64,000 nucleotides of DNA from Gemmatimonadota bacterium (GTDB lineage: Bacteria > Gemmatimonadota > Gemmatimonadetes > Longimicrobiales > Gaopeijiaceae), in assembly GCA_028873595.1 (NCBI GenBank), contig JAPPOV010000024.1, forward strand, positions 1-64,000, in the 5' to 3' direction. The stretch's first letter is position 1. Each line of letters begins with the position of its first letter. The notes under the pieces were generated by a model that worked only from the letters and a program-made list of their open reading frames with translations, did no database searches and had not been told where the DNA came from. Positions 8,961 through 14,983 of this stretch are shown here, in pieces. The position numbers and the translations under genes are program-made.

Positions 8961-9659
8961 TCAGGACGCGACGGCTACGCGACCGAAGCGCCGATCCCGT
9001 GCCCGGAAGTCGTCCATCGCGGCGGCCAGCTCCGAGCCGTGGAACTCGGGCCACATGGTCGGCGTGAAGTAGAGCTCCGCGTAGGCGCACTCCCAGAGGA
9101 GGAAGTCGCTCAGTCGGCGCTCTCCGCCTGTCCGGATAAGGAGGTCTACGTCCGGGGCCTCGCCATCCCCGTTCATCGCGTGCCCGATCAGGGTGACCAG
9201 ATCCTTACGCTCGATGTCTGATGCTGCTGCTGCGATGCGAATGGCCTCTAGCATCAAGTCACGACTCGAGTAGTCCACGGCGAGGCGGAGCTCGAGCCGC
9301 TCGCCCCCGGCCGTCTGCTCTTCAGCTCGTTCGATCGCGGTCACCAGACCGGACGCCAGACGGTCCCGGCGACCGATGACCTTCACTCGGACGCCGTTGT
9401 CGCGCAGTTCGTCGATCTCCGTCCTGAGATACCGACGGAAAAGCTTCATGAGCACCGAGACCTCGGACTGCGGACGCTTCCAGTTGTCCGATGAAAACGC
9501 GTACAGCGTGAGCGTACGGATCCCCAGGTCTGGAGCGGCGCCTACCACGCTGCGCACCGACTCCGCTCCCTGGCGGTGGCCCCAGTTCCGGGGTCGCCCC
9601 CGGGCGGTCGCCCAGCGGCCATTCCCGTCCATGATGATCGCGACGTGCAGGTCGGTCAT
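8961..9659 (-). CDS. uppS: Isoprenyl transferase (undecaprenyl diphosphate synthase)
   Basis: UppS condenses isopentenyl diphosphates onto farnesyl diphosphate to make the C55 lipid carrier for cell-wall synthesis. The 232-residue protein opens with [13 protein letters not shown], where Asp11 is the catalytic and Mg-binding residue. It continues with [22 protein letters not shown] and the C-terminal [18 protein letters not shown], all cis-prenyltransferase signatures. The gene ends a short leftward series; the winged-helix gene ends-to-starts four bases upstream. cdsA, the usual partner, is not adjacent. Confidence 0.96.
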
Positions 9660-9663
9660 CTCT

Positions 9664-10053
9664 TCAGCCCTCCCTGGAATGGCGAGTGGCCTCGATGATT
9701 GCCTCCATGTGGCCGAGATATGATTCGAGCTCCTTGCGGCCCGTCCGGGTGAGCTCGTATTCGGTCTTCCGAGTCCGGCCCTCGAACGACTTCGTGCGCT
9801 GGATGTACCCGGCGTCTTCCAGCTTGCTGGCGTGCGATTTCAGGTTGCCGTCCGTGATGCCGAGCAGGTCTCGGAGGTCCGTGAACGTCAGCGACCCGTT
9901 CACGGCGAGCGAGCTGACAATACCAAGACGGGCTCGCTCATGGATCAGTCGATCGAGCTCCAGGGCTTCGGAGCCTCCTTCGGTGGCACCCAGCGACCCT
10001 GCTGGTTGGCGTTCCAGGTCGGCCTTTCTCGCCGCATTGTGCTTAGCCGCCAT
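9664..10053 (-). CDS. Winged-helix transcriptional regulator (HTH_34 type)
   Basis: A 129-residue DNA-binding protein. The region from [18 protein letters not shown] through [20 protein letters not shown] to the wing [18 protein letters not shown] matches the HTH_34 (MarR-like) winged helix. It has no separate ligand domain. Its start overlaps the end of a membrane-protein gene by 11 bases. In this arrangement such regulators usually repress their own operon in many soil and marine bacteria. An inverted repeat upstream of the operon (10698-10712) is a candidate binding site. Confidence 0.85.
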
Positions 10054-10660
10054 GTTTCCTCCAGATCACGACGCCAAAAACGATGTGAAGGCCACCGAAG
10101 CCGATGGCCATCCACAGATCACCCCAGGTCGGGGGCGTGATGAGTGCCAGGCCACCCACAAACATGAAAGCGGCGCCCATCAGCGGCACAGAGCGGACGG
10201 AGTACGAGCCGCCGGTCACCACGCTGGTTCCGTACAGCAGGAGCCACGTGCCCGGCAGGAGTTCCACCGCTCCCAGGCGAAGCAGCGCATAGGTCAGGAC
10301 GGCACCGGCCGCCATGGGCGGAATCACGTTCCACATGAATCGCCGACCCGGTCCGGTGAGCAGCCCCAAACCCTCAGACCTGGATTTTCGCGCCAGGCTG
10401 TACACCGCAATGGCAAGCGATCCGGCTGCGGCCTCAAACCAGACAGTAAGCCACATGATGTCCGACGATGCGGTGGCTGCGAAGCCCGATGCCACGAGAG
10501 CCACGACCCCCATCGCGACCCCGCCCATGCCGGACACGTGGGTGAACGACCCCGACCGCTCCATCGTTTCACGGATGTAACGCAGGTTGTCCATCGCGCG
10601 GTCGTGCAGCGCCATGGGGGCCCGATCAGAGTTGTGAAGCTTTGGTGCGGATGAGGTCAT
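10043..10660 (-). CDS. Hypothetical membrane protein, partner of winged-helix regulator
   Basis: A 205-residue protein of unknown function with about five hydrophobic segments, including GGVAMGVVALVASGFAAT, WFEAAAGSLAIAVYSLA, a Pro-containing segment NVIPPMAAGAVLTYALL, and a C-terminal AIGFGGLHIVFGVVIW. The soluble N-terminus has NLRYIRETMERSGSFTHVSG. I start at the ATG at 10660; ATGs further in are possible. The regulator gene overlaps its end by 11 bases. Membrane proteins of this layout paired with HTH_34 regulators recur in related genomes, but the role is unknown. Confidence 0.75.
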   Translation of the reverse strand: MTSSAPKLHNSDRAPMALHDRAMDNLRYIRETMERSGSFTHVSGMGGVAMGVVALVASGFAATASSDIMWLTVWFEAAAGSLAIAVYSLARKSRSEGLGLLTGPGRRFMWNVIPPMAAGAVLTYALLRLGAVELLPGTWLLLYGTSVVTGGSYSVRSVPLMGAAFMFVGGLALITPPTWGDLWMAIGFGGLHIVFGVVIWRKHGG

Positions 10661-10697
10661 CGATCGAAGTGTCCACCGAGCTGGTCGTATCGCCGAG

Positions 10698-10712
10698 CTT
10701 TGTATCGCAAAG
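10698..10712. promoter_or_regulatory. Inverted repeat, candidate operator
   Basis: CTTTG-TATCG-CAAAG is a perfect 5-bp inverted repeat about 40 bases upstream of the membrane-protein/winged-helix operon. Its size and position suit autorepression by the HTH_34 protein. No binding evidence is available. Confidence 0.35.
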
Positions 10713-10805
10713 TACGTGCCAGCTCGAGGCGCTGCCAATGTTTTCTTCTCGGGGTCGGAAGTCGCCGCGAACCCTGGGTGCGCGAGGGGTGCCGGGCGTC
10801 AGCCG

Positions 10806-11795
10806 TCAGGCACTTGGGGCGAGGACCCTCAGTGCTCCGGGCATGGAGTGTACCTCGACCACTTCGGTCTCCGACGTGCGGACGTCTCCGTCCATCTCGA
10901 ATCGCGGAGGTTCCGGGAATGTGAGCTTGAACATGGTGTCGTCCACGACGTCGACAAGCGGGGACCGTACGTGGCGACCACGCTCGGCTGCCTGGAAGAG
11001 CTTCATCCGCTTGAACCCGGACGCGTCGCCGATCAGACACGCGTGCAGGCGTCCGTCGTCGACCGTCGCGTCGGGGGCGATGGGAAAGCCGCCACCGAAG
11101 TACCGCCCGTTCGACACCGTGAGCATGAGTTGATCAAGCTCTCGGGCTTCGCTCGAACCTGGCTCTATGCGGGCATGAAGGCCCGGAAAGCCGAAGAGCT
11201 GCTGGAGGGCGGTGACCTTGTACAGCAGTTCGCCCCTGAGGAACCGCGCTCCCTTTGCCGCATCGATCACGGCCACGTCGAACCCGAAGCCGACGACGTT
11301 GAGGAAGTTTCGGGTCTCCCACCTGTCCGGATCGTGCTCCGACGCACTGAGTGTGCCGACACGCCCCACGTCGATGGCTCGCGTGTGGCCTTCGGCAAGA
11401 ACGCGCACCGCTTCGGCCGGATTGCGGGGGTCGAACCCGAAGTTGCGGCCGAAGTCGTTCCCTGTGCCACTGGGCAGGATGCCGAGCATGACGTCGTCAC
11501 GCTCGCTCGCGACGAGGCGGTCAGCCACATTGCTCCACGTGCCGTCCCCGCCCACCGCAACGACGACGTCGTAGCCCTCTTCGACGGCGCGCTCGGCGAG
11601 GTCGCGCTCCTCTCCCGGGCGGGTGGTTGCCCCGTACGTTACGTGGTCGAGCGCTTCGTCCAGAAGCGCCCGATAGGCGTTGATCCGTTTGCCCCCCCGC
11701 CCTCGACCGGACGCCGGGTTGAAGACGACGAAGTGCCGTCGAGCGGTCAGAAGTTCACCATCTTGTCGAACGTCTGCAGCCCTTTCCCGTACCAC
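10806..11795 (-). CDS. Diacylglycerol kinase/lipid kinase family protein
   Basis: A soluble lipid kinase of the DagK/YegS family, 329 residues. The catalytic N-domain has HFVVFNPASGRG (nucleotide loop), the GGDGT motif in VVAVGGDGTWSNVA, and LPSGTGNDFGRNFGF. The C-terminal beta-rich domain includes LTVSNGRYFGGGFPIAPDA and ends after FEMDGDVR. It should phosphorylate diacylglycerol or another lipid alcohol with ATP. The start at 11795 is a GTG with GGAGG nearly touching it and would overlap the upstream gene by 49 bases, so the true start may be closer to the HFVVFNP segment. Confidence 0.9.
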   Translation of the reverse strand: MVRERAADVRQDGELLTARRHFVVFNPASGRGRGGKRINAYRALLDEALDHVTYGATTRPGEERDLAERAVEEGYDVVVAVGGDGTWSNVADRLVASERDDVMLGILPSGTGNDFGRNFGFDPRNPAEAVRVLAEGHTRAIDVGRVGTLSASEHDPDRWETRNFLNVVGFGFDVAVIDAAKGARFLRGELLYKVTALQQLFGFPGLHARIEPGSSEARELDQLMLTVSNGRYFGGGFPIAPDATVDDGRLHACLIGDASGFKRMKLFQAAERGRHVRSPLVDVVDDTMFKLTFPEPPRFEMDGDVRTSETEVVEVHSMPGALRVLAPSA

Positions 11796-12418
11796 TCCTC
11801 CCGGAATGGATAGCTGTTCACATCGTCGATCGTGAGGCCCTCCGTCATCGGGTGTTCGTGGAGCGTCAGGCTCCCCGACTCCTCCTCATGTTCGGTGTGC
11901 GTCGCTTCCATGAGAATGTTGACCTTGAACCGGTCCTCGGGATCGACCGTGAAGCACATGTACGTGTTCGCGGCGGCCCCCCGTTCGTGGGACGTCACTG
12001 TCATTTCGAGCACCGGCTGGCCTTCGTCGCTCACCGTGACGACCATCTCATCGTCCGTCTCGGCGAAGTCGATGTCGACGTCCTTCATGTAGTGCGGAAG
12101 ATGCCATCGCTCGATCGCGTGGGCGCGCGATTCCGGAGTCGAGGTGCCCACCATGAACGGGAAGAAGGCGGCTTTCGGCAGCGGCTTTCCCGGCTCGACC
12201 ATGGGAGGCACGACCACGGCAAGCACGATCTCGTCGTATTCCCCCACCATGCTTTCGTTGAAGTGGAACGCCGTGATGGCCAGGATGCTTCGCTCGTGCT
12301 GGACCTCGAGGGGCTCCAGATGGCTCGGCAGAAGCTTCCGCGCATCGGCCGTAGGCATCTCGAAGTAGCCTCCGATGCACATGTCGTAGCCGTAGTACGT
12401 GTTCTCCGAATCGCTCAT
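11747..12418 (-). CDS. Protein resembling the acetoacetate decarboxylase fold
   Basis: A 223-residue soluble protein I recognise only weakly. The pattern ADARKLLPSHLEPLEV, followed by AITAFHFNES and EYDEIVLAVVVPP, is reminiscent of acetoacetate-decarboxylase-like proteins, where such strands line the substrate cone. I cannot identify a catalytic lysine with confidence, so function should be left open. It is the first gene of a leftward pair with the lipid kinase and diverges from plsC across a 93-base gap that probably holds both promoters. Confidence 0.55.
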   Translation of the reverse strand: MSDSENTYYGYDMCIGGYFEMPTADARKLLPSHLEPLEVQHERSILAITAFHFNESMVGEYDEIVLAVVVPPMVEPGKPLPKAAFFPFMVGTSTPESRAHAIERWHLPHYMKDVDIDFAETDDEMVVTVSDEGQPVLEMTVTSHERGAAANTYMCFTVDPEDRFKVNILMEATHTEHEEESGSLTLHEHPMTEGLTIDDVNSYPFREEWYGKGLQTFDKMVNF

Positions 12419-12511: not shown

Positions 12512-13291
12512 GTGTCCAGGCTTCGAGGATACCTCGCGCTGCTGTCCGTTTTCGTCTTGTTGCTCGTGAGCGACGTCGTGCAGCGGTTCATCATCTCGCC
12601 CTGGGTGAAGCTGCGCCCCTCGTCCCGGATCCCGGTCCTTGGCCGTTGGATCAACGCGATGGCCGTAGTCGTGACCCTTCCCCTGCGTAGGATCGGGGAT
12701 GCCTCCATGCAGTTCCCGTCTCGCATCGTACCGTGCGAACCCGGGACCCTGATCCTCATGAACCATCAGTCGGTCTTGGACATCCCGCTGGTGGTAAAGT
12801 CCGTGGCAGGCGGGTATCCGCGCATTGTCACGAGGGCCCGCTATCGCCGCTTTATTCCGCTAATCTCGCATATGGTCAGGCTCTATCAATACCCGACCGT
12901 CGACCCCACGGCAAACCCGCGAGACGTCCTCAAAATGGCCCGCGCGATGGCGCACGAGGCCCGTGATTCAGACGTTCCCATCGCGATCTTCCCAGAGGGG
13001 ACCCGGACAAGGGATGGGGCCATCGGCTCGTTCCGAAAGCGTGGCCTGACCAAGGTGCTCAAGGCACGACCCTGGACGGTGTACGTCTTCGTGGTCGACG
13101 GATACTGGCAGAACACGCACGTGAGAGATTTCCTGGCAGACCTTTCTGGCCTGGACGGCCGTGTGGAGCATGCCGCGACCCTCCGGTGGGACGACCCGAA
13201 GGCCGACCCGGCCGAATTCATGGACCAGATTCGAAACGTGATGATCGAGCAGCTGGCCGACATGCGTTCAAGGTCCTCGGCCGAAGCGTGA
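12512..13291 (+). CDS. plsC: 1-acyl-sn-glycerol-3-phosphate acyltransferase (PlsC family)
   Basis: PlsC acylates lysophosphatidic acid to phosphatidic acid at the membrane. The 259 residues carry the two acyltransferase signatures: NHQSVLD (HX4D, His85 and Asp90) and FPEGTRTRDGAIGSFRKRG (about 159-177). An N-terminal hydrophobic segment (YLALLSVFVLLLVSDVVQRF) anchors it. The start is a GTG at 12512 with AGAGGGT just upstream. The stop overlaps the next start by four bases (GTGA), placing phosphatidic acid synthesis directly ahead of a putative CDP-diacylglycerol synthase. Confidence 0.93.
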   Translation: MSRLRGYLALLSVFVLLLVSDVVQRFIISPWVKLRPSSRIPVLGRWINAMAVVVTLPLRRIGDASMQFPSRIVPCEPGTLILMNHQSVLDIPLVVKSVAGGYPRIVTRARYRRFIPLISHMVRLYQYPTVDPTANPRDVLKMARAMAHEARDSDVPIAIFPEGTRTRDGAIGSFRKRGLTKVLKARPWTVYVFVVDGYWQNTHVRDFLADLSGLDGRVEHAATLRWDDPKADPAEFMDQIRNVMIEQLADMRSRSSAEA

Positions 13292-14244
13292 GCCCCTCCG
13301 CGGCAGAGAGTTGGCCCGAGGCGGTTGCCCTCGCCGAGCGTATGGCAGGGCAGGCGAACGGCTCCGTGCGCGTCGTGCTCATGTACGGCTCATGGATCCT
13401 GAAGACGAACCCTGATCGTCACAGTGCGCTCGACTTCGTCGTCGTCGTAGACGACTACCGGACCTTCTACCGTGCCCTGGAAGATCACGCTGAACTCGGG
13501 CATCCGTCCGGTGTCATGGCGGCATTCTCCCGGGTCCTCACACCAAATGTGATTGCGTATGTCCCCGATGACGGCGCTCTCGGTATAGCGAAATGCCTGG
13601 TGATCTCGAAGCCGGACTTTGAGCGGGCACTCGGCCCCGCTCCCCCGGACCATTTCCTGCTCGGCCGCATGGTCCAGCGTGTCGGGGTCTTGTGGACGGA
13701 GTCCGGGGCCGAGGCGTCGTGGATTCGCAGTGTCATCGCAGGCGCCCATGCACGGGTGATTGAGTGGATGGCGCCGTACCTGATCGACTCCTTCGATGCT
13801 TCGGGCCTGGGCCGGCGCATTCTCGAGGTCTGTTATCGGGGGGAGCTGCGCCCAGAGTCCCGAGGACGCGCAGGCAGGGTTTTCGAAGCCCAGGCGGACC
13901 ACTTCGGTCAGGCCCTCGCGCCAGGACTCGAGGCTGCCGTACGTGCGGGTACGCTGCGTGCGCTCGAGGGCGGTCGGTACGAACTGGCGTCAGCGCCGCC
14001 GCCGTCGGTCCGCCGTCGCTGGAGGTGGCACTTCCGACGCTCCAAGGCGCGGGCCACCATGCGGTGGCTCAAGCATATGGTGACGTTTGCAAACTGGCTG
14101 CCGTATATCGTGCGGAAGGTCGAGCGGCATACGGGACGGACCATCGAGCTCACCAGGCTCGAGCGAGCACTTCCACTGCTCTTCCTGTGGCCTCGTGCTC
14201 TACATGTTCTTGTCACGCGTCCCAAGAGAGAACTCAAGCGATGA
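13288..14244 (+). CDS. Tam41-like putative CDP-diacylglycerol synthase
   Basis: A 318-residue protein whose layout resembles mitochondrial Tam41 (Mmp37), a peripheral CTP:phosphatidate cytidylyltransferase. The nucleotidyltransferase signature is MYGSW (Tyr33-Gly34-Ser35), followed by LDFVVVVDD with acidic residues at 49, 55 and 56. Further on, KCLVISKPDFERAL and ILEVCYRGELRPES fall where Tam41 has its later conserved blocks. A basic segment (RRRWRWHFRRSKAR) and an amphipathic C-terminus could bind membranes; there are no clear membrane spans. It lies between a phosphatidate-making and a CDP-DAG-consuming enzyme, with GTGA overlap to plsC. Family assignment is by eye and inferred; other nucleotidyltransferases are possible. 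Confidence 0.6.
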   Translation: MSPSAAESWPEAVALAERMAGQANGSVRVVLMYGSWILKTNPDRHSALDFVVVVDDYRTFYRALEDHAELGHPSGVMAAFSRVLTPNVIAYVPDDGALGIAKCLVISKPDFERALGPAPPDHFLLGRMVQRVGVLWTESGAEASWIRSVIAGAHARVIEWMAPYLIDSFDASGLGRRILEVCYRGELRPESRGRAGRVFEAQADHFGQALAPGLEAAVRAGTLRALEGGRYELASAPPPSVRRRWRWHFRRSKARATMRWLKHMVTFANWLPYIVRKVERHTGRTIELTRLERALPLLFLWPRALHVLVTRPKRELKR

Positions 14245-14251
14245 CTGACCG

Positions 14252-14983
14252 ATGAGAACCGACATGGCCGTATTTCTGGGCATTCTGGCGGTAGCCATTG
14301 CCTCGATGCCGATCTACGCGGTGGTGGGTCGAACGAGGGACGACGCCCATGAGATCGCCGACCGAGGCGGTTTCGTGCTCGGCAGCTTCGTTCGCAGCTG
14401 GTTCTACTGGTTCATATGGCCAATCGAACGCGCATCGCTGGCCATCGGGTTATCGCCGACGGCATACAATGTGACGGGTGTGCTTTGCGGGTGCGCCGCG
14501 GGTGCCTGCTTCGCGACTGGACGAGTGGCTCTGGGCGGCTGGCTTGTCCTTCTGGGTGGCGCGGCCGATGTGCTTGACGGACGCATCGCCCGAGCCCGTG
14601 GCCTGGCGAACGAAACAGGGGCCTTCCTCGATTCGACGCTGGACCGCTTCGCCGAGGTGGGGGCGTTCGTCGGACTCGCCGTGATGTATATGCAGTCGGC
14701 GTCACAATTGGCCGTGGTCGTCACTGCGATGGGCGGGTCGTTACTCGTGAGTTACGCCCGGGCGCGAGGGGAGAGCCTGGGCGTGGTTGCGAAGGTCGGG
14801 ATCATGCAGCGAGCCGAACGGCTGCTGCTTGTCGGCTTCGGTGGGGTCTTCGATCCAGCGGTGACGTCTTGGCAGGGCTGGGCCCCTGGAACGCTTCTTT
14901 TCTGGCTCCTCGGGGCCGTTGCCGTGGGGACGGTGGGGACCGCTGCGTATCGCACGGTGTGGATCGCCCGGCGCCTCGACTGA
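14252..14983 (+). CDS. CDP-alcohol phosphatidyltransferase
   Basis: A 243-residue integral membrane enzyme that transfers a phosphatidyl group from a CDP-activated lipid to an alcohol. The full signature DxxDGxxARx8GxxxDxxxD is present: Asp106, Asp109-Gly110, Ala113-Arg114, Gly123, Asp127, Asp131. About six hydrophobic segments surround it. The segment SYARARGESLG then VGIMQRAERLLL resembles phosphatidylinositol-phosphate-synthase-like and PgsA-like members. The acceptor (glycerol phosphate, inositol phosphate or other) cannot be read from the sequence. It lies seven bases after the Tam41-like gene and probably uses its product. Confidence 0.9.
   Translation: MRTDMAVFLGILAVAIASMPIYAVVGRTRDDAHEIADRGGFVLGSFVRSWFYWFIWPIERASLAIGLSPTAYNVTGVLCGCAAGACFATGRVALGGWLVLLGGAADVLDGRIARARGLANETGAFLDSTLDRFAEVGAFVGLAVMYMQSASQLAVVVTAMGGSLLVSYARARGESLGVVAKVGIMQRAERLLLVGFGGVFDPAVTSWQGWAPGTLLFWLLGAVAVGTVGTAAYRTVWIARRLD

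Follow-up and report, generated by a model that had tools for sequence, protein, structure and literature searches.

A Tam41-fold nucleotidyltransferase in a conserved Gemmatimonadota operon: a candidate route to CDP-ceramide

Which lipid phosphate is activated by a Tam41-like nucleotidyltransferase whose gene stands between those of a PlsC-like acyltransferase and a CDP-alcohol phosphotransferase? The three genes lie in positions 1 to 64,000 (hereafter, the window) of contig JAPPOV010000024.1 of a Gemmatimonadota bacterium (GCA_028873595.1), and a preliminary description had read them as a phospholipid operon whose middle gene supplies a missing CTP:phosphatidate cytidylyltransferase step. 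We presume instead, at about even odds, that the middle protein is a Tam41-type CTP:ceramide-1-phosphate cytidylyltransferase that feeds an inositol-phosphosphingolipid synthase and belongs to the same family as CpgC. The observations behind this reading are the operon, the fold, shared active-site residues, homology to proteins in the CpgC slot of other loci, co-occurrence with a serine-palmitoyltransferase-like (SPT-like) gene, and an inositol-phosphate pocket in the sequence of the partner enzyme.

The operon and its middle protein

The genes of the operon are as follows:
12512..13291, + strand: PlsC-like acyltransferase, 259 amino acids, GTG start (PF01553, 45.8 bits, cut-off 23; motifs NHQSVLD and FPEGTRTRDG)
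13288..14244, + strand: Tam41-fold nucleotidyltransferase (the middle gene), 318 amino acids, proposed lipid-phosphate cytidylyltransferase (ceramide-1-phosphate or phosphatidate)
14252..14983, + strand: CDP-alcohol phosphotransferase of the phosphatidylinositol-phosphate (PIP) synthase type ("class A"), 243 amino acids (PF01066, 44.1 bits, cut-off 22)

The GTG start of the middle gene overlaps the PlsC stop as GTGA, and 7 bp separate its own stop from the phosphotransferase open reading frame (ORF); all three ORFs occupy the positions given in the preliminary description. The NCBIfam model AGP_acyltrn scores the PlsC-like protein at 39.2 bits, under its cut-off of 102.95. In 25 loci from 25 genomes, the window included, a same-strand phosphotransferase gene adjoins the middle gene in every case and PlsC in 23. 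For 23 additional loci, four of them from genomes of the first set, the figures are 22 and 18, and the locus without a phosphotransferase (L075) is cut by a contig end. The three genes are a conserved unit, beyond chance.

The motifs reported for the middle protein are in place (MYGS at residues 32-35, DFVVVVDD at 49-56), and its likeness to Tam41 is borne out by the predicted fold, by the family profile, and by the acidic residue D49, which is invariant in all 46 aligned members. The match to PF09139 (Tam41/Mmp37) that the preliminary description had proposed as a check is not significant in the lone protein (10.5 bits, cut-off 24), whereas the predicted fold is that of Tam41 and the acid is kept. 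Polbeta likewise stays under its cut-off (11.7 bits against 26.9), and a search of the PDB with the lone sequence gave only chance matches to retinoid receptors. Within the family, PF09139 matches six of 46 members at E <= 0.01 (best 5.7e-8); phylum-wide it matches in 3 of 298 cases with none over the cut-off, and none of 14 controls is positive. The AlphaFold2 model (pLDDT 85.3, pTM 0.85) matches 7ecd, 6ig4 and 6ig2 by Foldseek and VIA, and its predicted architecture is a nucleotidyltransferase domain joined to a helical domain, as in Tam41. Identity is 13% to 7ecd and 17% to Schizosaccharomyces pombe Tam41; the family profile retrieves 6ig2 at E 1e-4. Residues G34, S35, D49, K102, R127 and R188 are invariant in the 46 members and aligned with 6ig2, and D49 is followed by hydrophobic residues. 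Excerpts of PMC11646218 describe Tam41 as having one catalytic acid instead of three, together with conserved basic residues, and the middle protein shows this same pattern. CdsA-type traits are lacking, with no PF01148 match and no hydropathy segment above 1.6 in a 19-residue window; by this measure the protein is soluble, as had been proposed.

Tam41 is already known from bacteria (PDB 7ecd), and the Firmicutes enzyme produces CDP-diacylglycerol (CDP-DAG; Kimura 2022, as cited in the excerpts of PMC11646218), so that its occurrence here is not in itself the novelty it was first taken for. The window gene differs from that enzyme in being fixed in a PlsC/CDP-alcohol-phosphotransferase operon linked to an SPT-like gene. 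From the mitochondrial Tam41 of S. pombe (6ig2/6ig4, Jiao et al. 2019) it differs in having no mitochondrial or cardiolipin context and in falling under the PF09139 cut-off; of the suggested bearing on the origin of the mitochondrial enzyme, nothing is left beyond a distant common fold.

Nor is a cytidylyltransferase step missing. The genome carries a separate, intact CdsA (PF01148, 167 bits) with the hydropathy segments of an integral membrane protein and the full signature KDSGTLFPGHGGVLDRID (form KD-x5-PGHGG-x2-DR-x-D), which rules out the missing-CdsA reading. The cdsA gene lies next to the canonical UppS-type (undecaprenyl-diphosphate-synthase-type) gene and a Dxr-like ORF, the latter named by eye. 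The genome also encodes PgsA and PssA, which both exceed their NCBIfam cut-offs, and two further CDP-alcohol phosphotransferases; the operon is therefore a second set. Phosphatidate, the substrate originally proposed, is not the likeliest one, because the gene tracks the SPT-like gene phylum-wide and because plasmid homologues stand in sphingolipid loci.

Association with sphingolipid genes

Many relatives carry, between PlsC and a gene for an acetoacetate-decarboxylase-like (ADC-like) protein, a further gene of about 430-480 codons. Six of its products were scanned and belong to the BioF/Kbl/serine-palmitoyltransferase family; for one of them, the closest PDB entry is the Sphingobacterium serine palmitoyltransferase (2e-85), and a BioF/Kbl protein follows at 4.8e-76. 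The gene is inside the cluster in 10 of the 25 loci that have at least 3.5 kb upstream. In the window's genome the SPT-like orthologue, 68% identical, lies elsewhere and is directly followed by a second ADC-like gene (L116:7386-8051, 38.8% identical to the first). ADC-like proteins thus accompany the Tam41-like operon and the SPT-like gene alike, and a role in long-chain-base chemistry is possible.

Across 395 genomes, 60 possess both the Tam41-like and the SPT-like gene, 6 only the former, 13 only the latter and 316 neither (Fisher 9e-51); scraps of about 45 positions in 17 genomes are left out of the Tam41-like count. Of the 66 genomes encoding a Tam41-like protein, 60 thus have the SPT-like gene. 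Among the 23 listed members of genus g41, five have both genes, one has only the SPT-like gene and 17 have neither. The ceramide synthase family CerS was rejected as a marker: it is too widespread (43 of 56 relatives) and is missing from four genomes that have both genes.

A tblastn search of 72,556 plasmid records with the middle protein gave seven matches (Roseomonas 4, Pseudomonas 2, Diaphorobacter 1) at 89-92% query coverage and 23-30% identity, and six of the seven contexts were inspected. The loci of R. marmotae and R. haemaphysalidis begin with a phosphocholine-cytidylyltransferase family protein, a nucleotidyltransferase, a GNAT-domain 'dATP pyrophosphohydrolase', two LptF/LptG proteins and a HIT protein, and continue with a metallophosphoesterase, a CDP-alcohol phosphotransferase, a diacylglycerol-kinase family protein, the middle-protein homologue ('hypothetical protein'), an aminotransferase class I/II and an acyl carrier protein. 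Caulobacter CC_1152 to CC_1162, according to PMC11324152 (here and below in excerpt), comprises two nucleotidyltransferases, CerS, transport genes, a phosphoesterase, a CDP-alcohol-type enzyme, ceramide kinase, CC_1161 and Spt. The Roseomonas gene order follows this one, which places the homologue in the slot of CC_1161, or CpgC. By blastp, the middle protein matches five such CpgC-slot proteins at E 4e-17 to 6e-6, with 20 invariant columns. Mutants of CC_1161 lack ceramide phosphoglycerate (CPG) as well as CPG2, and their ceramide is moderately raised; CPG formation requires ceramide kinase as well as CpgC (PMC11324152). The same authors report an InterPro CDP-DAG-synthase domain in CC_1161 and have already proposed, as speculation, a nucleoside-diphosphate-activated ceramide, and a 2026 preprint, in the portion available (PMC13228409), has CpgC acting 'via an unidentified mechanism'.

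The likeness to CpgC thus lies in homologues in Roseomonas plasmid loci that share its gene order, and in the link to SPT, a lipid kinase and a CDP-alcohol phosphotransferase. The Gemmatimonadota cluster differs from the Caulobacter locus in its PIP-synthase-type phosphotransferase, its kinase, which by blastp is not of the CpgB type, and the presence of PlsC, and it has no LptF/LptG or CpgD. Plasmid clusters of Sphingomonas and Acidisoma with SPT and CerS-type genes contain, in the stretch inspected, no CpgC-like gene, lipid kinase or CDP-alcohol phosphotransferase; the joint absence of these three genes suggests that they form a phospho-head-group module. At E <= 10, the window's PlsC does not match the acyltransferase encoded by the Diaphorobacter plasmid.

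Some further observations concern these relatives. Phosphosphingolipid-type clusters lie on the plasmids pDCB2 of Diaphorobacter (L120), pBYT5-2 of Pseudomonas BYT-5 (L122) and pPNP1 of Pseudomonas JS425 (L119), two of which are typed as conjugative by PLSDB. YghO, from Escherichia coli and Pseudomonas veronii records (plasmid hits H24-H27), shares 43% identity with the GNAT-domain protein that fills the CerS slot in Roseomonas and, judging from this identity, may be a ceramide-synthase-type N-acyltransferase. Genome G019 has a second, CpgC-like family member (L136:39-2408), convergent to a fusion of an NTP-transferase and a CDP-alcohol phosphotransferase and near lipid-transport-like genes (named by eye).

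The partner phosphotransferase and the neighbouring genes

The third protein of the operon has the complete CDP-alcohol phosphotransferase signature ascribed to it (D106-x2-D109-G-x2-A-R-x8-G123-x3-D127-x3-D131). Its best NCBIfam models are those of archaetidylinositol-phosphate synthase and phosphatidylinositol-phosphate synthase, with scores under the equivalog cut-offs (NF040950, 127.1 bits against 180; NF045883, 96.4 against 170), and its best PDB matches are the mycobacterial and Renibacterium PIP synthases (E 1.5e-16 to 5.4e-16). Matches to it occur in 357 of the 395 genomes; 65 have class A (E <= 1e-60), and the remainder fall into a class B (E about 1e-21 to 1e-39). Sixty-four genomes combine class A with the Tam41-like gene, two have only the Tam41-like gene and one has only class A; two of the exceptions lie at contig ends, and in G338 there is no match. 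Of the 65 class A genomes, 24 have a second match, which in G396 is itself of class A; in the other 41, the window's included, no second PIP-synthase-like gene was detected at E 1e-20. Class B adjoins Ino1 in 13 of 14 Gemmatimonadota loci (L096-L109), some of which were picked because both matches shared one contig. In the window's genome, Ino1 has no adjoining class B PIP synthase. Dependence on Ino1 would be a weak discriminating test, as Ino1 is present in 360 of the 395 genomes.

The signature acids (D106-D131) are invariant in 57 class A and 14 class B sequences. In Mycobacterium tuberculosis PgsA1 the inositol-phosphate pocket consists of R94, S132, Y133, R137, R152, R155 and R195 (PMC6506517, in excerpt). 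Both classes keep it: R132, S167, Y168, R187, R190 and R234 are invariant where present, and position 172 is R or K. R234 is probably the counterpart of PgsA1 R195, where the pairwise PDB alignment is off by two. Class A is fixed for F133 and G173; at these positions, I/V/L and A are found in class B and in the M. tuberculosis enzyme.

Upstream of the operon, on the opposite strand, lie:
11747..12418, - strand: ADC-like protein, divergent from the operon (PF06314, 37.1 bits, cut-off 29.8)
10806..11795, - strand: YegS/BmrU-type lipid kinase, a diacylglycerol or sphingolipid kinase (PF00781, 107.5 bits; TIGR00147, 134.2 bits, cut-off 118.65)
8961..9659, - strand: second UppS-type prenyltransferase (PF01255, 251.7 bits; NF011412, 342.1 bits, cut-off 334)

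The kinase gene is within the cluster in most loci. From its name the enzyme cannot be assigned a substrate, because CpgB phosphorylates diacylglycerol besides ceramide in vitro (PMC10331486, in excerpt); blastp gives no support for it as a ceramide-kinase orthologue. The stretch 8961-10738, before the kinase, holds the UppS-type gene, a winged-helix regulator (HTH_34) and a membrane protein without a Pfam match, and this trio accompanies the cluster in 10 of 31 loci.

Proposed pathway and its competitors

According to our model, the SPT-like enzyme would make a long-chain base, which would be N-acylated and phosphorylated, the candidate kinase being the YegS-type enzyme beside the operon. The Tam41-like enzyme would bind CTP as Tam41 does, dock on the membrane via its C-terminal helices and transfer CMP from CTP to ceramide-1-phosphate, yielding CDP-ceramide. 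The class A phosphotransferase would then exchange CMP for inositol phosphate supplied by Ino1, giving an inositol-phosphate sphingolipid. We infer CTP as the nucleotide, ceramide-1-phosphate as the substrate, the order of the steps and what the kinase, PlsC and the ADC-like protein do.

Several findings weigh against this interpretation. To our knowledge, all characterised Tam41 enzymes use phosphatidate. The family sequence profile failed to retrieve 7ecd, and PF09139 finds none of the five CpgC-slot plasmid proteins at E 0.1; moreover, the CpgC slot is a putative assignment resting on the gene order in PMC11324152, not on the CC_1161 sequence. Compared by blastp with the five lipid kinases from the plasmid loci, the window's kinase matches none at E <= 10 and by this measure is not of the CpgB type; its profile scores are those of an ordinary YegS/diacylglycerol kinase. 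PlsC is without an obvious role in a sphingolipid pathway. The SPT-like protein stays under the cut-off of every NCBIfam SPT model, with BioF/Kbl models scoring equally high, and the Fisher value ignores shared ancestry. Six genomes (G005, G125, G172, G291, G349, G391) have the Tam41-like gene without the SPT-like one; four of them are 85-89% complete, and incompleteness explains G125 (one contig, 93%) and G172 (96%) less readily. Finally, G007, G017, G020 and G026 have both genes but no CerS, and many genomes with neither gene do have CerS.

The main alternative is that the operon encodes a second CDP-DAG synthase, with PlsC and the kinase providing phosphatidic acid and the phosphotransferase turning CDP-DAG into phosphatidylinositol phosphate. 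The link to the SPT-like gene would then be indirect: phosphatidylinositol gives its head group to ceramide, the kinase re-phosphorylates the leftover diacylglycerol, and the operon closes the cycle. All four proteins would have textbook roles, the Tam41-like one acting as its Firmicutes counterpart does (PMC11646218). Bacteroides inositol sphingolipids are fed by phosphatidylinositol from a PIP synthase (PMC9246714, in excerpt), and class A may be the sole PIP synthase in the 41 (of 65) class A genomes where no second PIP-synthase-like gene was detected. On the other side, the genome has its intact CdsA; no Tam41-like gene adjoins the canonical class B PIP synthases, whose neighbour is Ino1 in 13 of 14 loci; and ceramide phosphoglycerate in Caulobacter depends on ceramide kinase and CpgC. 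Furthermore, among neighbouring genes shared by at least 4 of the 31 loci, judged by labels and lengths with components partly identified, none of the inositol-phosphoceramide-synthase type and no obvious head-group transferase turned up. We regard this pathway as a serious competitor, with the odds leaning against it. The Bacteroides inositol-lipid clusters (BT_1522-1526 and the B. vulgatus alternative) likewise bring together a PIP-synthase-type enzyme, Ino1 and sphingolipid synthesis in one organism; in contrast to the present cluster, their CDP-DAG comes from elsewhere or they have an NTP-transferase of another family, and the excerpts of PMC9246714 mention no Tam41-fold protein.

It is unlikely that the cytidylyltransferase acts on another lipid phosphate, such as a long-chain-base phosphate, a lyso- or ether lipid, or polyprenyl phosphate. 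In favour are the second UppS-type gene that neighbours 10 of 31 loci and the fact that the ceramide model assigns no role to the ADC-like gene or to PlsC; the UppS-type gene is, however, limited to part of the loci, and the SPT-like gene is the stronger partner. It is very improbable that the protein is an unrelated, aminoglycoside- or MNT-type nucleotidyltransferase with no more than the core fold in common: weak Pfam matches to Adenyl_transf and Polbeta occur in 12 and 16 of 26 members at E <= 1, and at E <= 0.01 they shrink to 2 and 1 of 46, beside the six for PF09139.

Tam41 in bacteria and CpgC as a gene were known before; what is new is the fold assignment of the family, its phylum-wide association with an SPT-like gene and its partnership with a PIP-synthase-type enzyme. 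If the operon does serve as a second route to CDP-DAG, a soluble synthase would work for one lipid branch beside the normal CdsA. With slightly less confidence than in the enzyme's identity, we tentatively extend the ceramide model: a Tam41-fold ceramide-1-phosphate cytidylyltransferase with CDP-ceramide as its intermediate would also explain the CpgC step in Caulobacter and, with a PIP-synthase-type partner in Gemmatimonadota, would yield an inositol-phosphate sphingolipid directly, without head-group transfer from phosphatidylinositol. Bacteria would then build on a sphingoid backbone as they do in phospholipid synthesis, from lipid phosphate through CDP-lipid to head-group exchange. A full-text search of 5.39 million open-licence papers did not find the term 'CDP-ceramide', and literature searches turned up no report of inositol sphingolipids in Gemmatimonadota. 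If the model is true, such lipids are predicted in this phylum, CpgC would gain a chemical identity, CDP-ceramide would be established as a biological intermediate, and the Tam41 family would be widened from glycerophospholipids to sphingolipids.
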